Assembly (NCBI RefSeq): GCF_014138265.1
Contig: NZ_JACGXL010000002.1
Span: forward strand, 124,001 to 188,000
Length of the DNA stretch: 64,000 bases
From: Dokdonella fugitiva
GTDB taxonomy: Bacteria; Pseudomonadota; Gammaproteobacteria; Xanthomonadales; Rhodanobacteraceae
Reading direction: 5' to 3'
The notes beneath the pieces are model-generated. The model did no database searches and was not told the DNA's origin. It worked only from the letters and a program-made list of their open reading frames with translations. Positions 1,332 to 29,900 of the stretch are shown in pieces. Numbering within the stretch: position 1 is the stretch's first letter; each line of letters begins with the position of its first letter. The translations under genes were made by a program, and so were the position numbers.

Positions 1332-3131
1332 ATGCCCGGCCGCATCCCCGAAAAATTCATCGACGACCTGCTCGCGCGCGTCGACATCGTCGACGTGATC
1401 CAGGAGCGCGTGCCGCTGAAGAAGGCCGGGCGCGACTGGTCGGCGCGCTGTCCGTTCCACGACGAGCGCTCGCCGTCGTTCACGGTGAGCCCGGCCAAGC
1501 AGTTCTACCACTGCTTCGGCTGCGGCGCGCACGGCAGCGCGATCGGCTTCCTCATGAACTACGACCGCCTCGAGTTTCCCGACGCGGTCGAGGAACTCGC
1601 GAACCGCATCGGCCTCAAGGTGCCGTACGAAGGCGGCCGCGAGGCGCCGCGCGAGGACAGCAGCGACCTCTACAACCTGCTCGACGCGGCCGCGGCGTTC
1701 TTCCGCCGCCAGCTCGACGCGAACGACCGCGCGCGCGCGTACTTCGACGGCCGCGGCCTCGACGCGACGACGCTCGCGCGCTTCAACCTCGGCTTCGCGC
1801 CCGATGCGTGGGACGCGCTGAAGAACGCGCTCGGCACGAGCGCGCAGCGCATCGCGCTGCTCGAGAAGGCGGGCATGCTCACGAGCGGCGAGCGCGGTTC
1901 GAAGTACGACCGCTTCCGCAACCGCGTGATGTTCCCGATCCTCGACCGGCGCGGACGCACGATCGCCTTCGGCGGCCGGATCATCCCGGAAGTGCGTGCT
2001 TCATTTGAAGAGTCCGGCGAGGGATCGCCGGTTCTTGATCGTCGCGCGCAGGATGCGCGCAAAGGGGAAACCGGCCCGAAGTACCTCAACTCGCCCGAGA
2101 CGCCGCTGTTCCACAAGGGTCGCGAGCTGTTCGGCCTGTGGCAGGTGCGCGAGGCGCACGCGAAGATTCCGCGCCTGATCGTCGTGGAGGGCTACATGGA
2201 CGTGATCAGCCTGCACCAGTTCGGCGTGCCGCAGGCGGTCGCCACGCTCGGCACCGCGACCACGCGCGATCACGCCGAGATCCTGTTCCGCCAGTGCGCC
2301 GACGTCTACTTCTGCTTCGACGGCGACCGCGCGGGCCGCCAGGCCGCCTGGCGCGCGGTCGAGTCGGTGCTGCCGCGCATGCGCGACGGCCGCCAGGCGC
2401 TGTTCCTGTTCCTGCCCGACGGCGAGGACCCGGACACGCTCGTGCGCAAGGAGGGCCTCGCCGGCTTCGAGCAACGGCTCAAGGACGCGATGCCGCTGAG
2501 CGAGTTCTTCTTCGGCGAACTCGGCAAGGACGTCAACCTCGGCTCGCTCGACGGCAGGGCTCGTCTCGCCGAGCGCGCGCGGCCGCTGCTCGCGCAGATT
2601 CCCGACGGCGCGTTCCGCGATCTCATGCTCGCCGAACTCGACAAGTCGACCGGCGTGCGCGTGCAGGTCGCCGCACCGCCGTCCGACGCGGCGGCGAAGC
2701 CGCGCAACGCGCGACCTGCGCAACGCTCGCTCGTGCGCGCCGCGATCACCCTGCTCGTGCAGCGCCCGGCGCTCGCGCTCGCGCTCGAACCGCCGTGGTC
2801 GTTCGCGGAGCTGCGCCAGCCCGGCATCCCGTTGCTGGTCGAGCTCATCGGGCTGTGCCGCACGCGCACGAGCCTCACGACCGGCGCGCTGCTCGAGCAT
2901 TTCGGCGAGCGCGAAGAAGCGAAATCGCTGCAGAAGCTCGCGATCGTCGACTTCCCCGGCGGCGAGAGCGAGGCGCGCGCGGAGTTCGTCGACGCGATCG
3001 CCCAGCTCGAACGGCAGACCACGCAGCAGCGCCTCGACGACCTCTCGCGCAAGCAGGCCGAGGGGCCGCTCGCGGACGAGGAAAAGCAGGAACTGCGCGC
3101 CCTGCTCGCCGGCAAGGCGGCGCGAACCTGA
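1332..3131 (+). CDS. dnaG: DNA primase DnaG
   Basis: 599-residue replicative primase that makes RNA primers at the fork with DnaB. N-terminal CHC2 zinc ribbon is intact (C40, H43, C61, C64, in CPFHDERSPSF ... FYHCFGCG), followed by the core with LIVVEGYMDV and the TOPRIM acidic motif YFCFDGDRAG, then a DnaB-binding C-terminal helical domain (about 440-599). Odd feature: residues about 219-247, between FGGRII and the conserved GPKYLNSPETPLFHKG, are an extra segment of roughly 26 residues not found in ordinary DnaG; the DNA encoding it is made of three successive perfect hairpins (see the repeat entry). The frame is preserved, so the enzyme is probably functional. rpoD, which usually follows dnaG in gammaproteobacteria, is replaced by a cold-shock gene. 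Confidence 0.97.
   Translation: MPGRIPEKFIDDLLARVDIVDVIQERVPLKKAGRDWSARCPFHDERSPSFTVSPAKQFYHCFGCGAHGSAIGFLMNYDRLEFPDAVEELANRIGLKVPYEGGREAPREDSSDLYNLLDAAAAFFRRQLDANDRARAYFDGRGLDATTLARFNLGFAPDAWDALKNALGTSAQRIALLEKAGMLTSGERGSKYDRFRNRVMFPILDRRGRTIAFGGRIIPEVRASFEESGEGSPVLDRRAQDARKGETGPKYLNSPETPLFHKGRELFGLWQVREAHAKIPRLIVVEGYMDVISLHQFGVPQAVATLGTATTRDHAEILFRQCADVYFCFDGDRAGRQAAWRAVESVLPRMRDGRQALFLFLPDGEDPDTLVRKEGLAGFEQRLKDAMPLSEFFFGELGKDVNLGSLDGRARLAERARPLLAQIPDGAFRDLMLAELDKSTGVRVQVAAPPSDAAAKPRNARPAQRSLVRAAITLLVQRPALALALEPPWSFAELRQPGIPLLVELIGLCRTRTSLTTGALLEHFGEREEAKSLQKLAIVDFPGGESEARAEFVDAIAQLERQTTQQRLDDLSRKQAEGPLADEEKQELRALLAGKAART
1999..2060 (+). repeat. In-frame hairpin repeat inside dnaG
   Basis: Three consecutive perfect inverted repeats: CTTCA/TGAAG (1999-2003 and 2006-2010), CCGGCG/CGCCGG around loop AGGGAT (2014-2019 and 2026-2031), and GCGCGC/GCGCGC around loop AGGAT (2044-2049 and 2055-2060). 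They encode the extra DnaG segment and look like a REP-type intergenic element that landed in a coding region without breaking frame. The last two loops match the hairpins found between the oxidase genes at 23.9 and 25.7 kb. Confidence 0.7.
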
Positions 3132-21884: not shown

Positions 21885-22094
21885 ATGCTCGGCACCGTCC
21901 TGATCGTCGTGTTCTTTCTCGCCATCGTCTACAACCTGGGCGCCGGCCTGTTTTTCATGATCACCGACAAGGGCGGCACGGACCGCACGCTGAAAGCGCT
22001 CACGCGACGCATCGCGCTGTCGGTGCTGCTGATCGCGCTCGTCATGCTCGGCATCTGGACCGGCATCATCCGCCCGCACGGCGTGGGCGGCTGA
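21885..22094 (+). CDS. DUF2909 twin-transmembrane protein
   Basis: 69 residues with two membrane helices separated by a short charged loop: LIVVFFLAIVYNLGAGLFFM, TDKGGTDRTLKALTRRI, and LSVLLIALVMLGIWTGI, ending RPHGVGG. This is the standard DUF2909 pattern, a small protein found in oxidase loci beside SURF1 and ctaE in many proteobacteria. A role in cytochrome c oxidase assembly or stability is inferred from this constant company only. It is the only plus-strand gene in the oxidase region. Confidence 0.88.
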   Translation: MLGTVLIVVFFLAIVYNLGAGLFFMITDKGGTDRTLKALTRRIALSVLLIALVMLGIWTGIIRPHGVGG

Positions 22095-22196
22095 TTCGCG
22101 CGGCGCGAAGGCTGCAAGCCGACGCGCTCCGTTTGCCGTCCGTCATTGTGTTGCGGTCCCGCGATCGCGAGAGCCGAGGGCGCGGTGTCGAGCCCC

Positions 22197-22224
22197 CAGC
22201 CCTCAGCCCTCAGCCCTCAGCCCT
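22197..22224 (+). repeat. Four tandem copies of CAGCCCT
   Basis: The 7-mer CAGCCCT occurs four times head to tail, just downstream of the minus-strand ctaE stop (22229) and 100 nt after the DUF2909 gene. A short slippage-prone microsatellite; no coding role. Confidence 0.85.
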
Positions 22225-22228
22225 GTTC

Positions 22229-23095
22229 TTACAGCACGTACACGAACAGGAACAGGCCGAGCCAGACCACGTCGACGAAGTGCCAGTACCAGGCGACCGC
22301 TTCGAAACCGAAGTGGTTGTCCTTGGTGAAGTGACCCTTCGCGCAGCGGAACCAGATCACCGTGAGCATGATCGCCCCGAGCGTGACGTGCATGCCGTGG
22401 AAGCCGGTGAGCATGAAGAACGTGCTGCCGTAGACGCCGCTGCCGAGCGTGAGGTTGAGATGCCCGTAGGCTTCGGCGTACTCGTGCGCCTGGAAGCCGA
22501 GGAAGATCACGCCGAGCACGACGGTGAGCGCGAGGAACACGAGCAGCTGCTTGCGGTTGCCGGCGCGCAGCGCGTGGTGGGCGATCGTGATCGTGACGCC
22601 CGACGACAGCAGCAACAGGGTGTTGAGCAGCGGGATGCCCCACGGCGACATCGTCGAGAACGCGCCGCCGACACCAGCCGGGCCGTTGGTCGGCCACGCG
22701 GCCGAGAACGCGGGCCACAGGTAGTGGTTGGTGAGCGCGCCATGGCCGGCGCCGCCGAGCCACGGCACCGAGTAGGTGCGGGCGTAGAACAGCGCGCCGA
22801 AGAACGCCGCGAAGAACATCACTTCCGAGAAGATGAACCAGATCATCCCCATGCGGAAGGAGGTGTCGACCTGCTTGTTGTACTTGCCGCCGATCGACTC
22901 GCGGATGACCGTGCCGAACCAGCCGAACATCATGAACAGCAGCAGGGCGATGCCGACGGCCATGATCGGCTTGCCGATGTCGGCCTCGTTGAGCCAGAGG
23001 CCCGCGCCGCCGACCGTACCGAGCAGGCCGAACGAGCCGATGATCGGCCAATGGCTGCCGTGGGGAACGTAGTAAGCACCTTGTGTTTGCGCCAT
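22229..23095 (-). CDS. ctaE: Cytochrome c oxidase subunit III
   Basis: 288 residues, seven membrane helices. Diagnostic motifs: YYVPHGSHWPIIGSFGLL at the start, MGMIWFIFSEVMFFAAFFGALFY (the E-rich helix III), GFQAHEYAEA, TGFHGMHVTLGAIML, and the terminal AVAWYWHFVDVVWLGLFLFVYVL. It stabilises the subunit I core and its proton uptake. ATG 23095 opens the MAQTQGAYYVPHG start; a much longer upstream open frame exists but runs antisense-like into ctaG and is rejected. Fifth gene of the coxB-ctaD-assembly-ctaG-ctaE run, 38 nt after ctaG. Confidence 0.97.
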   Translation of the reverse strand: MAQTQGAYYVPHGSHWPIIGSFGLLGTVGGAGLWLNEADIGKPIMAVGIALLLFMMFGWFGTVIRESIGGKYNKQVDTSFRMGMIWFIFSEVMFFAAFFGALFYARTYSVPWLGGAGHGALTNHYLWPAFSAAWPTNGPAGVGGAFSTMSPWGIPLLNTLLLLSSGVTITIAHHALRAGNRKQLLVFLALTVVLGVIFLGFQAHEYAEAYGHLNLTLGSGVYGSTFFMLTGFHGMHVTLGAIMLTVIWFRCAKGHFTKDNHFGFEAVAWYWHFVDVVWLGLFLFVYVL

Positions 23096-23133
23096 GGCGG
23101 CTGGTCCCGATCGTTGCGTCAATTTGCCTGGAG

Positions 23134-23727
23134 TCAGCCCGCCGCCGGCAGCGGCGAGCCCGTCTTGGGGTGTTGCTCGGCGGACAGCCGCACGGTGGCC
23201 GCTTCGTTCGCGTAGAAAGTGTACGACAGGGTCAGCTCGCGCACGCCCTGCGGCAGCTGCGGGTCGACGTAGAAGCGCACCGGCATGCGGCGCGATTCGC
23301 CCGCCCTCAGCACCTGCTCGGTGAAGCAGAAGCATTCGGTCTTGTTGAAGAACGCCGACGCATCGCTCGGCGCGATGCTCGGCACCGCGTTGCCGACGAT
23401 CGCGTCGCCGCCGTTGTTGGTCGCGTCGAACCACACTTCGGTCAGCTTGCCGGGGTGCACGTCGACGCCGGAGAGCTCCGGCGTGAACGACCACGGCAGC
23501 TTGCTGTTGACGCCGGTCACGAACTGAACCCGCACGGTGCGGTTCACGTCCTCGACCAGGCCCGCGACGCGACTGCGGTCGACTGCGCCCGGCGCGAGCT
23601 TGATGCCGAGCACGTGTTCGCACACGACGCGATACAGCGGCACCATCGCGAAACCGAACAGGAACGCGCAGGCGACCACGACACCGGCCGTCTTCAGCAC
23701 GCCGAGATTGCGGTTCCCCGCATTCAT
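23134..23727 (-). CDS. ctaG: Cytochrome c oxidase assembly protein CtaG/Cox11
   Basis: 197 residues. One N-terminal membrane helix (LKTAGVVVACAFLFGFAMVPLY, then RVVCEHVLG) and a periplasmic immunoglobulin-like copper domain with FNKTECFCFTEQVL, where the CFC pair binds Cu(I), and PVRFYVDP. It delivers CuB to subunit I. ATG 23727 overlaps the stop of the small assembly gene by 4 nt (ATGA), so translation is coupled. Confidence 0.97.
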   Translation of the reverse strand: MNAGNRNLGVLKTAGVVVACAFLFGFAMVPLYRVVCEHVLGIKLAPGAVDRSRVAGLVEDVNRTVRVQFVTGVNSKLPWSFTPELSGVDVHPGKLTEVWFDATNNGGDAIVGNAVPSIAPSDASAFFNKTECFCFTEQVLRAGESRRMPVRFYVDPQLPQGVRELTLSYTFYANEAATVRLSAEQHPKTGSPLPAAG

Positions 23728-23855
23728 CGGCGCAGCACGACGTCGCCGATCGCGATCAGGTAGATCGCGACCGCCACCAGCCCGATGACGAGCGCGGTGC
23801 GGCGCGCCCGCGCGCGGCCTGCAGGGCGTTCGTCATTGGCAAGCTGTTGTTTCAT
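23724..23855 (-). CDS. Small oxidase assembly protein, 43 residues
   Basis: Tiny gene between ctaD and ctaG: MKQQLANDERPAGRARARRT, then one membrane helix (about residues 21-40) ending VVLRR. Same size, position and topology as the cytochrome oxidase small assembly protein annotated in many beta- and gammaproteobacterial cox operons. ATG 23855; the TGA overlaps ctaG's ATG. It is below common gene-calling length limits, so it is easily missed. Function is inferred from constant location. Confidence 0.8.
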   Translation of the reverse strand: MKQQLANDERPAGRARARRTALVIGLVAVAIYLIAIGDVVLRR

Positions 23856-23895
23856 TGCCTCGTCGTCGGTTCGCAGCGTGCTTTACTTCAATAGT

Positions 23896-23987
23896 GCGGC
23901 CATGGAAGGCCGCTCCTGGACCAGCAAATTCAAACGCCGCTTCGAACCGACGTCACCTCCATCGAACCAGCGATCACGGACGATCGC
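23896..23987 (+). repeat. Two GGA-loop hairpins between ctaD and the small assembly gene
   Basis: Hairpin 1: GCGGCC (23896-23901), loop ATGGAA, GGCCGC (23908-23913). Hairpin 2: GCGATC (23970-23975), loop ACGGAC, GATCGC (23982-23987). Both stems are perfect and both loops are hexamers of form A-N-GGA-N when read on the plus strand, opposite to the genes. The gap 23856-23992 has no coding signal. Confidence 0.7.
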
Positions 23988-23992
23988 ACCAC

Positions 23993-25621
23993 TCAATGCG
24001 TCACGTCGCCGTGGGCGAGCACGTCGTCGCGGATCACCGGCGGCACCGTGAACGTGTGGTGCGGCGCCGGCGACGGCACGGTCCACTCGAGGCCGTGCGC
24101 GCCTTCCCACACCTGCGTCGTCGCGCGATTCTTCGAGAAGTAGACCGCGTGGATGACCACGCCGACGAAGATCAGCTGGCTCGCGCCGAACCAGAAGCCG
24201 CCGATCGACGAGATCATGTTGAAGTCGGCGAACGCGACGTTGTAGTCGGGGATGCGGCGCGGCATGCCGGCGAGGCCGAGGAAGTGCTGCGGGAAGAACA
24301 GCACGTTGACCGAGATCACGCTCGACCAGAAGTGGATCTTGCCCCACTTCTCCGAATACATGTTCCCGCACCACTTCGGCAGCCAGTAGTAGGTCGACGC
24401 CATGATCGCGAAGATCGCGCCGGTGACCAGCACGTAGTGGAAGTGCGCGACGACGAAGTAGGTGTCCTGGTACTGGAAGTCGGCCGGCACGATCGCGCAC
24501 ATGACGCCGGAGAAGCCGCCGATCGTGAACAGGATGACGAATGCGATGGCGAACAGCATCGGCGTCTCGAACGTCATCGAGCCGCCCCACATCGTCGACA
24601 CCCAGTTGAACACCTTCACGCCGGTCGGGATGGCGATGAGCATGGTCGCGTACATGAAGTACAGCTCGCCGCCGAGCGGCATGCCGACCGAGAACATGTG
24701 GTGCGCCCAGACGATGAACGAGAGGAACGCGATCGACGCGATCGCGTACACCATCGCCTGGTATCCGAAGATCGGCTTGCGGCTGAAGGTCGGGATGATC
24801 TCCGACACGATGCCGAACGCCGGCAGGATCATGATGTAGACCTCGGGGTGCCCGAAGAACCAGAAGATGTGCTGGAACATCACCGGGTCGCCGCCACCGG
24901 CCGCGTTGAAGAAGCTCGTGCCGAAGAACTTGTCGGTCAGCAACATCGTGACCGCGCCGGCGAGCACCGGCATGACCGCGATGAGCAGGAACGCGGTGAT
25001 CAGCCAGCTCCACACGAACACCGGCATCTTGAGCAGGTCCATGCCCGGCGCGCGCATGTTGAGGATCGTCGCGATGATGTTGATCGCGCCCATGATCGAG
25101 CTGATGCCCATGAGGTGCACCGCGAAGATCATGAAGGCGACGTTGGTGCCGCCCTCGAGCGACAGCGGCGGGTACATCGTCCAGCCGCCCTGCGGGCCGC
25201 CGCCGGGCATGAAGATCTCGGAGATCAGCAGGAAGAACGCGAACGGCAGGATCCAGAACGACCAGTTGTTCATGCGCGGCAGCGCCATGTCCGGCGCACC
25301 GATCATCAGCGGGATCATCCAGTTGCCGAGGCCGACGAACGCCGGCATGACCGCGCCGAAGATCATGATCAGCGCGTGCATGGTCGTCATTTCGTTGAAG
25401 AACTCCGGCTGCACGAGCTGCATGCCCGGCTTGAAGAGTTCCGCGCGGATGACCATCGCCATCGAGCCGCCGATGAAGAACATCAGCAGCGAGAACACGA
25501 GGTACAGCGTGCCGATGTCCTTGTGGTTCGTCGTGAACAGCCAGCGATGCAGGAAGCCTTCCGGCTTGTGATCGTGGTCGTCGTGGGCGTCGTGATCGAT
25601 CGCGGGATTGGCAGCGGCCAT
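23993..25621 (-). CDS. ctaD: Cytochrome c oxidase subunit I
   Basis: 542 residues, twelve-helix heme-copper oxidase core. Active-site features: MTTMHALIMIF (heme a His), WFFGHPEVYIMILPAFG (CuB His cross-linked to Tyr, E of the D-channel region just before), WAHHMFSVG (CuB His pair), and VVAHFHYVLV (heme a3 and a His). The YxxxD/NHKDIGTLYLVFSLLMF opening and length make it an A-type aa3 oxidase, the terminal proton-pumping enzyme of aerobic respiration. ATG 25621 is chosen because MAAANPAIDHDAHDDHDHK is the usual type of hydrophilic start; eleven upstream codons fall in a hairpin repeat. Confidence 0.98.
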   Translation of the reverse strand: MAAANPAIDHDAHDDHDHKPEGFLHRWLFTTNHKDIGTLYLVFSLLMFFIGGSMAMVIRAELFKPGMQLVQPEFFNEMTTMHALIMIFGAVMPAFVGLGNWMIPLMIGAPDMALPRMNNWSFWILPFAFFLLISEIFMPGGGPQGGWTMYPPLSLEGGTNVAFMIFAVHLMGISSIMGAINIIATILNMRAPGMDLLKMPVFVWSWLITAFLLIAVMPVLAGAVTMLLTDKFFGTSFFNAAGGGDPVMFQHIFWFFGHPEVYIMILPAFGIVSEIIPTFSRKPIFGYQAMVYAIASIAFLSFIVWAHHMFSVGMPLGGELYFMYATMLIAIPTGVKVFNWVSTMWGGSMTFETPMLFAIAFVILFTIGGFSGVMCAIVPADFQYQDTYFVVAHFHYVLVTGAIFAIMASTYYWLPKWCGNMYSEKWGKIHFWSSVISVNVLFFPQHFLGLAGMPRRIPDYNVAFADFNMISSIGGFWFGASQLIFVGVVIHAVYFSKNRATTQVWEGAHGLEWTVPSPAPHHTFTVPPVIRDDVLAHGDVTH

Positions 25622-25640
25622 GGCCTTGGAACCTCTATTG

Positions 25641-25736
25641 AAAAGTGCGGCCACGGATGGTCGCTTTTCGCTCTGCTCTCGCGTTCACGGATGAACGCAC
25701 AAGTTGTCGAATGCTTTCGCGTTCACGGGTGAACGC
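25641..25736 (+). repeat. Three GGA-loop hairpins between coxB and ctaD
   Basis: Hairpin 1: GCGGCC (25647-25652), loop ACGGAT, GGTCGC (25659-25664, one G-T pair), flanked by AAAAG and TTTT. Hairpin 2: GCGTTC (25681-25686), loop ACGGAT, GAACGC (25693-25698). Hairpin 3: GCGTTC (25719-25724), loop ACGGGT, GAACGC (25731-25736). Read on the plus strand, opposite to the cox genes. Copies 2 and 3 are direct repeats 38 nt apart. Loop and stem geometry equals the RsmA/CsrA recognition hairpin. Confidence 0.75.
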
Positions 25737-25748
25737 ACGGATTGCTCG

Positions 25749-26654
25749 TCAGCCCTGCGATGCCGGCGCCGGCGTCGCCTGCGCGGTCGCGCCGGCCTTC
25801 TCGGCGGCTTCGGCGGCTTCCTGGCCGGCCAGCCACTGCTCGAACTCGGCCTTCGGCACCGCCTTCACGACGATCGGCATGAAGCCGTGGTCCTTGCCGC
25901 ACAGTTCCGCGCACTGGCCGCGGTAGATGCCCGGCTGGTCGATCTGCGTCCAGTTGTCGTTGATGATTCCCGGGATCGCGTCCTGCTTCCAGCCGAGGCT
26001 CGGCACCCACCATGCGTGGATGACGTCGTCGGCGGTGATCACGAAACGCACCTTCACGCCGACCGGCAGCACGAGCGGCTTGTCGACGTTGAGGAGGTAG
26101 CTGGGGAAGTCGCCGTCCTTGATCGAGTGCGGGTCGATGCCCGAACCGAGCTGGCGCGCCTTGTTCGAGTCGGCATCGAGGCTCGACACGAAGTTCACGC
26201 TAGACGCCTTCTTGAAGTAGTCGACGTACTCGTAGCGCCACTTCCACTGGTAGCCGGTGATCTTGATCGTCATGTCCGAGCCCTTCGCCTCGGCCATGTC
26301 GACGAGCAGCTTGGTCGCCGGCCACGCCATCACGACGAGGATGACGATCGGCACGACCGTCCAGATCACTTCCATCGTGGTGTTGTGGGTCCACTTCGCC
26401 GCGACCGCGCCCTTCGATTTGCGGAAGCGGACCATCGCGACGATCATCGCGCCGAACACGACGATGCCGATCGCTACGCAGACCCAGAACGCGAGCATGT
26501 GCACGCCATGGATGCGCTGCGAGATCGAGGTCGCACCCGGAGCCATGTTGAGCTGCCACGGCTGCGGATTCGCGAACGCCGTTCCGCTCGCCAGCAACGC
26601 GAGTACCGCGAACGCGCGGCAGGCGCGCAGGACCCCGGATGAAATCATCGCCAT
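25749..26654 (-). CDS. ctaC: Cytochrome c oxidase subunit II
   Basis: 301 residues. Signal/anchor start MAMISSGVLRACRAFAVLAL, two membrane helices (HMLAFWVCVAIGIVVFGAMIV and MEVIWTVVPIVILVVMAW), then the periplasmic CuA cupredoxin domain: GYQWKWRYEYVD (electron entry aromatic patch), DVIHAWWVPSLGWKQDAIPG, and the CuA ligands in GQCAELCGKDHGFMPIVV. It takes electrons from cytochrome c. No fused cytochrome c domain. ATG 26654 has AAAGGTG upstream; a 9-bp hairpin lies in its leader. First gene of the oxidase operon. Ends in an Ala/Pro-rich tail. Confidence 0.97.
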   Translation of the reverse strand: MAMISSGVLRACRAFAVLALLASGTAFANPQPWQLNMAPGATSISQRIHGVHMLAFWVCVAIGIVVFGAMIVAMVRFRKSKGAVAAKWTHNTTMEVIWTVVPIVILVVMAWPATKLLVDMAEAKGSDMTIKITGYQWKWRYEYVDYFKKASSVNFVSSLDADSNKARQLGSGIDPHSIKDGDFPSYLLNVDKPLVLPVGVKVRFVITADDVIHAWWVPSLGWKQDAIPGIINDNWTQIDQPGIYRGQCAELCGKDHGFMPIVVKAVPKAEFEQWLAGQEAAEAAEKAGATAQATPAPASQG

Positions 26655-26980
26655 CACCTTTCTGGTTTTGCTCGGACGCGCCCCATTGCGCGGTCGCCGC
26701 GACGACCGCGCGACCGATGCCGGACGCGCCAAACGTCGGGAGCGTAACCCGTCAATGATAGTGGAGCGCGCGCGGCAGCGGCAACCACGCGGGGTCGCGC
26801 CGCAGGCGGCTGCGGCGCGCCCGGGCGCGACAAAGCGCCGCACCGGCCGGGCCGGGCAGGCCCTCGCGCGCGGTTCTTGGCCGGTCGCCGCGCGCTCACT
26901 ACACTAGGCGATCCTGGCGTTTGCCCAGTCCCCGCACCGGCCGCCGTCCGCCGGTGCTCCCCAGCACCCGAGACCGGCCC
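26655..26980. other. Divergent control region between ctaC and putA (326 nt)
   Basis: No gene seen. Contents: on the ctaC side a 9-bp hairpin GCGCGGTCG (26688-26696) with CGACCGCGC (26703-26711) in the presumed ctaC leader; in the middle GC-rich spacer; on the putA side a sigma70-like promoter (26877-26905). Both oxidase and proline-catabolism operons are therefore controlled from this one interval. Confidence 0.6.
26877..26905 (+). promoter_or_regulatory. Sigma70-type promoter of putA
   Basis: TTGGCC (-35, 26877-26882) and TACACT (-10, 26900-26905) with an exact 17-nt spacer; predicted start of transcription near 26912. This makes the open TTG at 26921 nearly leaderless and favours TTG 26981 as putA start. 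Confidence 0.6.
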
Positions 26981-29900
26981 TTGAGCGCATCGCTGCTGCC
27001 CGAACTCCCGCCCGCCCCCGACCCCGTCTGGGCCCGCATCACCGCCGCCTGGGCGCGCGACGAAAGCGACGCCGTCGACGACCTGCTCGCGCAGGCGACG
27101 CTGCCGCCGGCCGAGCGCGAACTCGTACTCGCGCGCGCGTCCGAGCTCGTCGCCCGCGTGCGGGCACGCGCGGGTGAGCAGAGCGCGGTCGAATCGTTCA
27201 TGCGCCAGTACGACCTCTCCAGCGAGGAAGGCGTGCTGCTCATGTGCGTGGCGGAGGCACTGCTGCGCATCCCGGACACGTTCACCGCGGACAAGCTCAT
27301 CCGCGACAAGCTCGGCGAGGCGGACTGGAAGAAGCACCTCGGTACGAGCGAGTCGGTGTTCGTCAACGCGTCGACCTGGGGCCTCATGCTCACCGGCCAC
27401 CTCGTCGCGCTCGCCGAGGAGACGCGGCGCGACTTCACCGGCGCGTTCAAGCGTCTCGTCGGCCGCGCCGGCGAACCGGTGATCCGCCTCGCAGTGCGCC
27501 AAGCGATGCGCATCATGGGCCACCAGTTCGTCATGGGCCGCACGATCGAGGAAGCGCTCGACCGCTCGGCGCAGAAGGACAACGCGGCCTACCGCTATTC
27601 CTACGACATGCTCGGCGAAGCCGCACTCACCGCCGCCGACGCCGAGCGCTACCACCGCGCCTACAAGGACGCGATCGACGCGCTCGGCCGCCGCGGGCCG
27701 TTCGACAGCGTGCTCGACGCGCCGTCGATCTCGGTCAAGCTGTCGGCGCTGCATCCGCGCTACGAGGTCGCCAAGCGCGCGCGCGTGCACGCTGAACTCA
27801 CGCCGAAGCTGCTCGAACTCGCCCAGCTCGCCAAGGCGAACGGCATCGGCATGACCGTCGACGCCGAGGAGTCGGACCGCCTCGAACTCTCGCTCGAAGT
27901 GATCGGCGCGGTGTTCGCGCATGCCTCGCTCGCGGGCTGGAACGGCTTCGGCCTCGCCGTGCAGGCGTACCAGAAGCGCTGCCCGTTCGTGATCGACTGG
28001 CTCGCCGACACCGCGCGCAAGGCCGGTCGCCGCTGGTGCGTGCGCCTGGTCAAGGGCGCGTACTGGGACTCGGAGATCAAGCGCGCGCAGGAACAGGGCC
28101 TGTCCGGCTACCCGGTCTACACGCGCAAGCCGAACACCGACGTGTCCTACCTCGCCTGTGCGCGGCGCCTGTTCGCGGCCGGCGCGGACCTCATTTATCC
28201 GCAGTTCGCGACGCACAACGCGCACACGATCGCGGCGATCCACCACTACGCGCAGAAGCGACCGTTCGAGTTCCAGCGCTTGCACGGCATGGGCGCCGAC
28301 CTCTACGCGGAAGTCATTGGCGAGAAGCACCTCGACGCTCCGTGCCGCGTGTACGCGCCGGTCGGCAGCCACGAGGACCTGCTGCCGTACCTCGTGCGGC
28401 GCCTGCTCGAGAACGGCGCCAACACCTCGTTCGTCAATCGCGTCGTCGACGAGAACGTGTCGATCCGCGACCTCGTCGCCGACCCGTGCGAAACGGTGCG
28501 CGCGTTCTCCTCCAAGCCGCACCCGCGCATCCCGCTGCCGGTCGGCCTCTACGGCGGCTCTGCGCTTGCGCAGAGCCCAACCCATGCATCCAGGAAGAAT
28601 TCCATGGGCGTCAACCTCGCCAACGACAACGAACTCAAGGCCCTCGCCGAAGCCGTCAACGCGCCACGCGCGCCGTGGACCGCGGCGCCGCTCGTGCCCG
28701 GCGCGAAGACCGGCGAAGCGCCGCGCGCGGTGACGAACCCGGGCGATCGCCGCGAAGTCGTCGGCGAGACGCGCAACGCGGACGCCGCGACGATCGAGAA
28801 GGCGCTCGCCAACGCGGTCGCCGCGCAGCCCGACTGGGACGCATTGCCGGCCGCGAGCCGCGCCACGATCCTCGAACACGCGGCCGACCTGCTCGAGCAG
28901 CGCCGCGGCGAGTTCATCGCGCTGTGCGTGCGCGAGGCGGGCAAGACGATCCCGGCCGCGATCTCCGAAGTGCGCGAGGCGGCCGACATGTGCCGCTACT
29001 ACGCGGCCCTCTCGCGCAAGCTGTTCGGCACGCCCGAGGCACTGCCCGGCCCGACCGGCGAATCGAACCAGCTGTTCCTGCGCGGCCGCGGCGTATTCGT
29101 CTGCATCAGCCCGTGGAACTTCCCGCTCGCGATCTTCATGGGCCAGGTCGCCGCCGGCCTCGCCGCGGGCAACGCGGTGATCGCCAAGCCGGCCGACCAG
29201 ACCACGCTCGTCGGCTGCGCCGCGGTGAAACTGCTGCACGAAGCCGGCGTACCCGAGGCCGTGCTGCAGTTCGTGCCGGCGAAGGGCTCGATGATCGGCA
29301 ACACGCTGCTGACCAAGCCCGACGTGTCCGGCGTGTGCTTCACCGGCTCGACCGAGACCGCCTGGACGATCAACCGCACGCTCGCCGCGCGCAACGCGCC
29401 GATCGCCGCGCTGATCGCCGAAACCGGCGGCCAGAACGCGCTCATCGCCGACTCCTCGGCGCTGCCCGAGCAGCTCGTCAAGGACGTGCTCGCGTCGGCG
29501 TTCGATTCCGCCGGCCAGCGCTGCTCGGCCGCGCGCGTGCTGTACGTGCAGGAAGACATCGCCGACAAGGTCATCGCGATGCTCAAGGGCGCGATGGACG
29601 AGCTCGTCGTCGGCGACCCGGCCAAGCTGTCGACCGACGTCGGCCCGGTCATCGACGAACCGTCGCGTACGTTCCTCGTCGAGCACGCCGCGCGCATGGA
29701 CCGCAAGGCGAAGAAGATCAACGAGGCCAAGCTCGACGCCGGCGCGGAGCACGGAACGTTCTTCGCACCGCGCGCGTACGAGATCCCGTCGCTGTCGCTG
29801 CTCACCCAGGAAGTGTTCGGCCCGGTGCTGCACGTGCTGCGCTGGAAGGGCAGCGAACTCGACAAGGTCATCGATGCGATCAACGCGACCGGCTTCGGCC

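Follow-up and report, generated by a model that had tools for sequence, protein, structure and literature searches.

A dispersed twin-hairpin unit with a CsrA-like loop, probably a mobile palindromic element, in the cox operon of Dokdonella fugitiva

The five hairpins in the gaps of the cox operon of Dokdonella fugitiva are parts of two copies of a dispersed twin-hairpin unit that is not specific to the oxidase genes. We consider it probable that this unit is a non-autonomous mobile palindromic element, similar to REP and RPE repeats and found mainly in one bacterial family; the likeness of its loops to CsrA binding sites is real in sequence but is not supported as function. The unit forms a family with covarying stems and a constant loop, its copies occur in both orientations and in frame within genes, essential ones among them, and dnaG displays both filled and short sites. 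The dispersal of the unit, its presence in both orientations and its copies within genes argue for mobility. The term window refers to the whole stretch of DNA that was analyzed (64,000 nucleotides).

Hairpins of the cox operon and architecture of the unit

A sequence-only reading of this DNA had described five hairpins and their loops in two gaps of the cox operon. All five were located on the plus strand at the coordinates it gave, far beyond what shuffled sequences contain (5 observed versus a mean of 0.009 and a maximum of 1 over 5000 rounds of dinucleotide shuffling applied to both gaps). Copy A (23882..23992, +) is a long form located in the gap between ctaD and a small ORF before ctaG; its outer limits were estimated from the conservation profile and do not extend past the stop codon of ctaD. 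It comprises hairpin 1 (23896..23913, GCGGCC-ATGGAA-GGCCGC), a spacer of 56 nt (23914..23969) and hairpin 2 (23970..23987, GCGATC-ACGGAC-GATCGC). Copy B (25633..25745, +, outer limits inferred) lies in the ctaC-ctaD gap and comprises hairpin 1 (25647..25664, GCGGCC-ACGGAT-GGTCGC), which is terminator-like on the plus strand, hairpin 2 (25681..25698, GCGTTC-ACGGAT-GAACGC) and an extra hairpin 2 (25719..25736, GCGTTC-ACGGGT-GAACGC). Four of the five stems are Watson-Crick throughout, and the stem at 25647 has one G-T pair. The covariance model described below matches copy B with 65.6 bits (E 1.5e-20, 25631-25706). The 12 bases TTCACGGATGAA, which we take to be the hcnA core, are present exactly at 25684-25695, as the sequence-only reading had noted, and this is their single occurrence in the window, on the same plus strand.

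The surrounding genes are encoded on the minus strand: ctaG (oxidase assembly protein, 23134..23727), the small ORF of 43 residues (23724..23855), ctaD or coxA (oxidase subunit I, 23993..25621) and ctaC or coxB (oxidase subunit II, 25749..26657, start uncertain). The ctaG, ctaD and ctaC products passed the NCBIfam cut-offs, and a subunit III-like protein gave NCBIfam matches below the model cut-offs only. The GGA face of the hairpins is therefore antisense to the operon, as had been pointed out before. RNA folding of the gaps gains modestly over shuffles (z -0.4 to -2.3), and an Rfam scan of positions 22000-28000 of the window returned two matches, both far under the gathering scores, and no curated RNA family.

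The unit is approximately 71 bp long and is generally composed of GAAAAGT, hairpin 1, a linker of ~12 or ~49-56 nt, a same-strand hairpin 2 and ACAAA. In each hairpin, a stem of 6 bp, usually with C-G as its closing pair, carries the hexaloop A-N-GGA-Y, and the two hairpins are direct rather than inverted, with both A-N-GGA loops on one strand. The stem of hairpin 1 is mostly GCGGCC/GGCCGC, whereas hairpin 2 has GCGATC, GCGTTC and other stems. When four genomes are pooled, loop positions A1, G3, G4 and A5 are each retained in at least 88% of the six-base loops of both hairpins, counted on copies found with the model, which somewhat favors the loop; position 2 is occupied by all four bases. Conservation extends into the flanks, with TTGAAAAGT preceding hairpin 1, a TTTTTGATCTTC-like linker leading into hairpin 2 and an A-rich stretch behind it; conservation drops to background approximately 14 nt ahead of the first hairpin and 9 nt past the second. 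The linker mostly measures 11-13 nt in genomes G053, G023 and G049. In the genome of the window (G000), 18 of the 36 copies have a second hairpin 49-56 nt further on, including the extra hairpin of copy B. The spacer of these long forms is near-constant in length (49-56 nt), and their middle sequences are unrelated (mean pairwise identity 0.28). Head-to-tail arrays of the unit with a period near 65 bp were observed at G053:C25:60266-60533 and C21:586509-586711.

Distribution, stem covariation and orientation

The unit is present throughout the genome, which bears out the plain repeat family that the sequence-only reading had kept as its fallback. A degenerate pattern matched 44 times in the whole genome versus 14 times for the reversed control, and the hairpin 1 pattern with an unconstrained loop 18 times versus 2 in the control. 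The latter has at least one match in 36 of the 59 family genomes, where single matches may be chance. A covariance model (R1) was trained on 16 of 22 short-form rows, selected because their hairpin 1 pattern was intact and their hairpin 2 paired, a choice that introduces an upward bias. It found 59 matches in the genome of the window and 114 in the relative G023 (E ≤ 1, 150 candidates scored in each), 146 in G053 and 65 in G049. With stricter filters and E ≤ 1e-6, 20 of the 151 genomes of the order matched, 16 of these 20 from the family of the window; the four outside it have one or two matches each, one of which is strong (G165, E 5.2e-18). Among 80 named loci collected by a CtaG search, 21 have model matches at E ≤ 0.1. 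The strong matches come from Rudaea, Dokdonella and bins that are unclassified or assigned to the Rhodanobacteraceae; a Lysobacteraceae bin (L128, E 1.6e-7) and an Arenimonas (L122, E 0.0023) match more weakly. Based on these named loci, the carrier family is taken to be the Rhodanobacteraceae. One 72-base copy found no match at E ≤ 0.01 in the plasmid and phage collections, and no published account of such a repeat in these bacteria was found among the titles and abstract starts listed from the open-licence literature. Copies in different genera also lie beside apparently the same tRNA genes (L005/L035 and L030/L060, tRNA identity judged by eye).

In the ctaD-ctaG gap of relatives, the model finds the unit in seven loci (L103, L105, L110, L111, L113, L114 and L125), always antisense; with the ctaC-ctaD gap counted as well, all model matches of the relatives are opposite to the operon strand. 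Several relatives, L106, L109 and L112 among them, showed no unit in the ctaD-ctaG gap. A hybrid remnant was recognized there by eye in L130, which, like L115, has a model match after ctaG. The spacer has diverged between copy A, L103 and L105, yet their hairpins can be aligned, with one base missing from hairpin 2 of L103, so the copy in the ctaD-ctaG gap seems to be an old insertion of the long form. The loops are kept in the ctaC-ctaD gap of L104, and L103, L105, L107 and L108 keep a similar GCGGCC-type stem there with other loops (by eye). In L105 (9657-9846, by eye), hairpin 1 of the long form in the ctaD-ctaG gap seems to contain a short-form copy or to have recombined with one.

Among the 90 distinct copies of G023, two-sided stem changes occupy 99 cells versus 24.8 in shuffles and are spread over 10 of the 12 pairs. 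Pairing is kept in 93.7% of cells versus 82.6% in shuffles, and the covariation signal, obtained on an alignment fitted to the covariance model, is lost when the stem partners are slid. This covariation supports the formation of hairpins and is silent on whether they act as DNA or RNA. Selection on one strand at the RNA level would predict an excess of G-T over A-C mismatches on the GGA strand. With symmetric scoring in four genomes, in which hairpins scoring below 4.5 were left out, the counts were 50 and 55, whereas the model-fitted alignments gave 50 versus 36 in total (43 versus 29 in G023, 7 versus 7 in the genome of the window). Without a clear G-T excess, such selection is unsupported. 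The sequence-only reading had taken stem change with kept pairing as a mark of selection on RNA shape; the covariation itself holds, the RNA-level selection is not supported.

Orientation was determined for 178 copies, using our own gene caller: all 36 of G000 at E ≤ 1e-5, 82 of the 114 of G023 after removal of tandem neighbors and weak matches, and the better-scoring ones of G053 (40 of 146) and G049 (20 of 65). Between tandem genes, 80 copies have the GGA face antisense and 43 have it sense; the remainder are convergent (19), divergent (16), in-gene (16) or open-ended (4). The excess is most pronounced in G000 (19 versus 3; 36 versus 26, 17 versus 10 and 8 versus 4 in the other three genomes), and without G000 the counts are 61 versus 40 (p = 0.046). 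Antisense and sense copies show no significant difference in how often they retain the loop of hairpin 1 (64 of 80 versus 32 of 43, p = 0.50) and hairpin 2 (49 of 80 versus 31 of 43, p = 0.24). T-run length does not differ between orientations either (p = 0.38), which lends no support to a terminator as the cause of the antisense excess. In G023, a stop codon is no more than 24 nt away from 30 of the 62 tandem copies.

Copies within genes and comparison with known repeats

A third full copy of the window, absent from the sequence-only reading, lies in frame inside dnaG (DNA primase, 1332..3131, +, start codon as chosen by our gene caller). This copy C (1998..2068, +) is a short form with the hairpins CCGGCG-AGGGAT-CGCCGG (2014-2031) and GCGCGC-AGGAT-GCGCGC (2044-2060), and it adds approximately 25 residues to DnaG between FGGR and KYLNS. 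A search of 41 genomes gave 30 dnaG loci, in which this linker measures 7-10 residues in 15 and 25-68 residues in the other 15. The unit is present at the linker in seven of the 30 loci, four sense and three antisense, and a model match is missing in 8 of the 15 long linkers. Element-bearing and short-linker orthologous sites are thus both seen, and the change between them may have gone in either direction. In G015, the closest relative by DnaG (91% identity), the dnaG copy has the opposite orientation to that of the window, and the site was therefore either filled more than once or its copy inverted. The dnaG linkers of L328 and L340 (genomes G010 and G008) contain a different palindromic stretch, CCCGC...GCGGGAA (by eye), which suggests that this linker is a tolerant site.

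According to the reading-frame calls, 16 of the 178 copies lie inside genes; relative to the host gene, 10 are antisense and 6 are sense. Ten of the 16 host proteins were scanned with NCBIfam and include DnaG, HrpA (two pieces), exonuclease I, PxpB/C, ThyA, MutS, GcvP, RecJ and PEP synthase; in-frame copies beyond dnaG thus include those in thyA, mutS, sbcB, recJ and hrpA. Compared with solved homologues of ThyA, MutS and DnaG, presumably the E. coli chains, the stretch encoded by the unit corresponds to 16-26 extra residues.

Genes for Y1_Tnp, the only transposase type searched, occur in 11 of the 16 genomes tested; with PF01797 at E ≤ 1e-3, none was found in the carriers G010, G049, G022 and G065. 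None of the 20 Y1_Tnp loci from these 11 genomes has the unit at E ≤ 0.01; one (L313) gives two weak matches (E 0.035 and 0.18). The single Y1_Tnp match of the genome of the window (L047, G000:C3:433910) adjoins a different palindrome of the GAGCGGCGGAAGCCGCTC type, perhaps the own REP of this Y1 gene. Neither a target-site duplication nor an exact junction was readable at the copies.

GTAG REPs are described as short, mostly intergenic palindromes in many copies, with complementary stem changes between subfamilies and some copies in genes (in the parts of PMC3733652, PMC2817692 and PMC3686654 that concern them). The unit resembles REP/RAYT systems in its many, mostly intergenic palindromes, its compensated stem changes and its in-gene copies. 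It differs from them in its two direct hairpins, its fixed A-N-GGA-Y loop and the lack of an adjacent Y1 gene among the loci searched, and it has no unpaired 5' GTAG/GTGG tag by the palindrome as in the definition given in PMC3686654. The two closely spaced palindromes that make up one REPIN, as outlined in the same source, are inverted, whereas those of the unit have the same orientation. CGTC REPs and the Rickettsia RPE are reported, in the relevant part of PMC3733652, without a dedicated transposase and as in-frame protein insertions, many of them in DNA replication and repair genes. In-frame insertion into protein genes is common to these repeats and the unit, but the unit lacks the CGTC tag, its stem is 6 bp rather than 8-9 bp, its loop is mostly 6 nt rather than 4-5 nt, and its hosts are others. 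We conclude, as far as that description extends, that the family behaves close to CGTC REPs and RPEs, minus their tags and plus direct twin hairpins and a fixed loop.

Elements of the IS200/IS605 type have two same-strand hairpins near their ends. The unit shares such twin hairpins with them and with their derived miniature elements, but neither a nearby Y1 gene nor cleavage sites were found, and the interior of the short form is only ~12 bp.

Weighing of explanations and significance

Targets of CsrA typically carry paired sites, as the unit does, and the idea that its hairpins are CsrA/RsmA binding sites, acting in mRNA or as antisense or sponge RNA, has a real basis in sequence. Both loops fit the Rsm consensus 5'-A/U-CANGGANG-U/A-3' (as given in the part of PMC6849547 that defines it), with the second loop base free, and the C-A-N-GGA-N-G loop is like that of the RsmA/CsrA sites of hcnA and RsmX/Y/Z. 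Xanthomonas offers a precedent in RsmU, described in part of PMC7694677 as an RsmA-binding sRNA derived from a 3'UTR, and the model-fitted wobble count (50 versus 36) leans the same way. The orientation, wobble and in-gene tests do not favor function at the RNA level: the GGA face is antisense in 80 copies versus 43, loop retention does not differ significantly by orientation, symmetric scoring gives 50 G-T versus 55 A-C, in-frame copies in conserved genes occur in both orientations, and the GCGGCC-type stem in the ctaC-ctaD gap of L103, L105, L107 and L108 carries a different loop. The RNA-level function proposed by the sequence-only reading is therefore not supported; CsrA/RsmA sites are rejected as the main reading and seem highly improbable. 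Intercistronic mRNA hairpins selected in the sense of the operon, through protection of upstream transcripts or weak termination, seem unlikely, although less so. The unit recurs in the ctaD-ctaG gap of relatives, nearly half of the tandem copies of G023 lie close to a stop codon, and in the three-relative alignment the hairpins are seemingly better kept than the spacer, but L103 has lost a base in hairpin 2. Hairpin 1 of copy B is terminator-like, though on the plus strand. L106, L109 and L112 lack the unit in the same gap, folding of the cox gaps is modest, T-runs are orientation-independent and a wobble bias is absent. Plain REPs moved by a RAYT (Y1) transposase would explain the high copy number, the mostly intergenic palindromes and the ~65 bp head-to-tail arrays. 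With direct hairpins, no GTAG/GTGG head, 0 of 20 Y1 loci with the unit and four carriers without a PF01797 match, this origin is rejected and very improbable. The random orientation and RAYT pattern that the sequence-only reading had associated with plain REPs appeared only in part, as orientation is mixed with an antisense excess and a RAYT partner was not found at the Y1 loci.

Template-switch correction of imperfect palindromes is expected to give compensatory changes without a G-T preference, and this is the pattern seen. DNA repair rather than selection could hence keep the stems paired, a possibility that we regard as doubtful. It leaves the dispersal, the constant loop and in-frame insertion unexplained, and it may act in addition to mobility. 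The preferred reading, a mobile palindromic element, has its own difficulties. Besides the 0 of 20 Y1_Tnp loci and the unreadable junctions, 8 of the 15 long dnaG linkers have no model match, and long-form spacers that are unrelated in sequence yet nearly constant in length are not explained by simple copying. The antisense excess (80 versus 43) is not accounted for, a terminator as its cause gaining nothing from the T-runs, and the consistently antisense copies in the ctaD-ctaG gap of seven related loci also fit a retained function. As a mobile element, the unit would land in either orientation, mostly between same-strand genes and sometimes in frame in genes. An enzyme would recognize it as a DNA hairpin through its loop and shape rather than its stem sequence. 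The copies in the cox operon would be insertions, probably old in the ctaD-ctaG gap, and any effect on the operon, as an intercistronic hairpin or partial terminator, would be a side effect and not the cause of the loop.

More tentatively, a RAYT-less palindrome may spread in this family through a single-strand hairpin reader of the C-A-N-GGA-Y-G hexaloop on any stem, entering replication and repair genes in frame, with sense transcripts offering RsmA sites. Palindromes that enter genes in frame without a known transposase are already described for RPE and CGTC REPs (in the part of PMC3733652 that covers them). The family presented here comes with carrier as well as non-carrier genera, exceeds 100 copies in some genomes and fills one dnaG linker in both orientations, so that searches for the mobilizer and for the target rule become feasible. 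It also serves as a warning that covarying stems around a perfect CsrA-like loop can arise from a DNA repeat.
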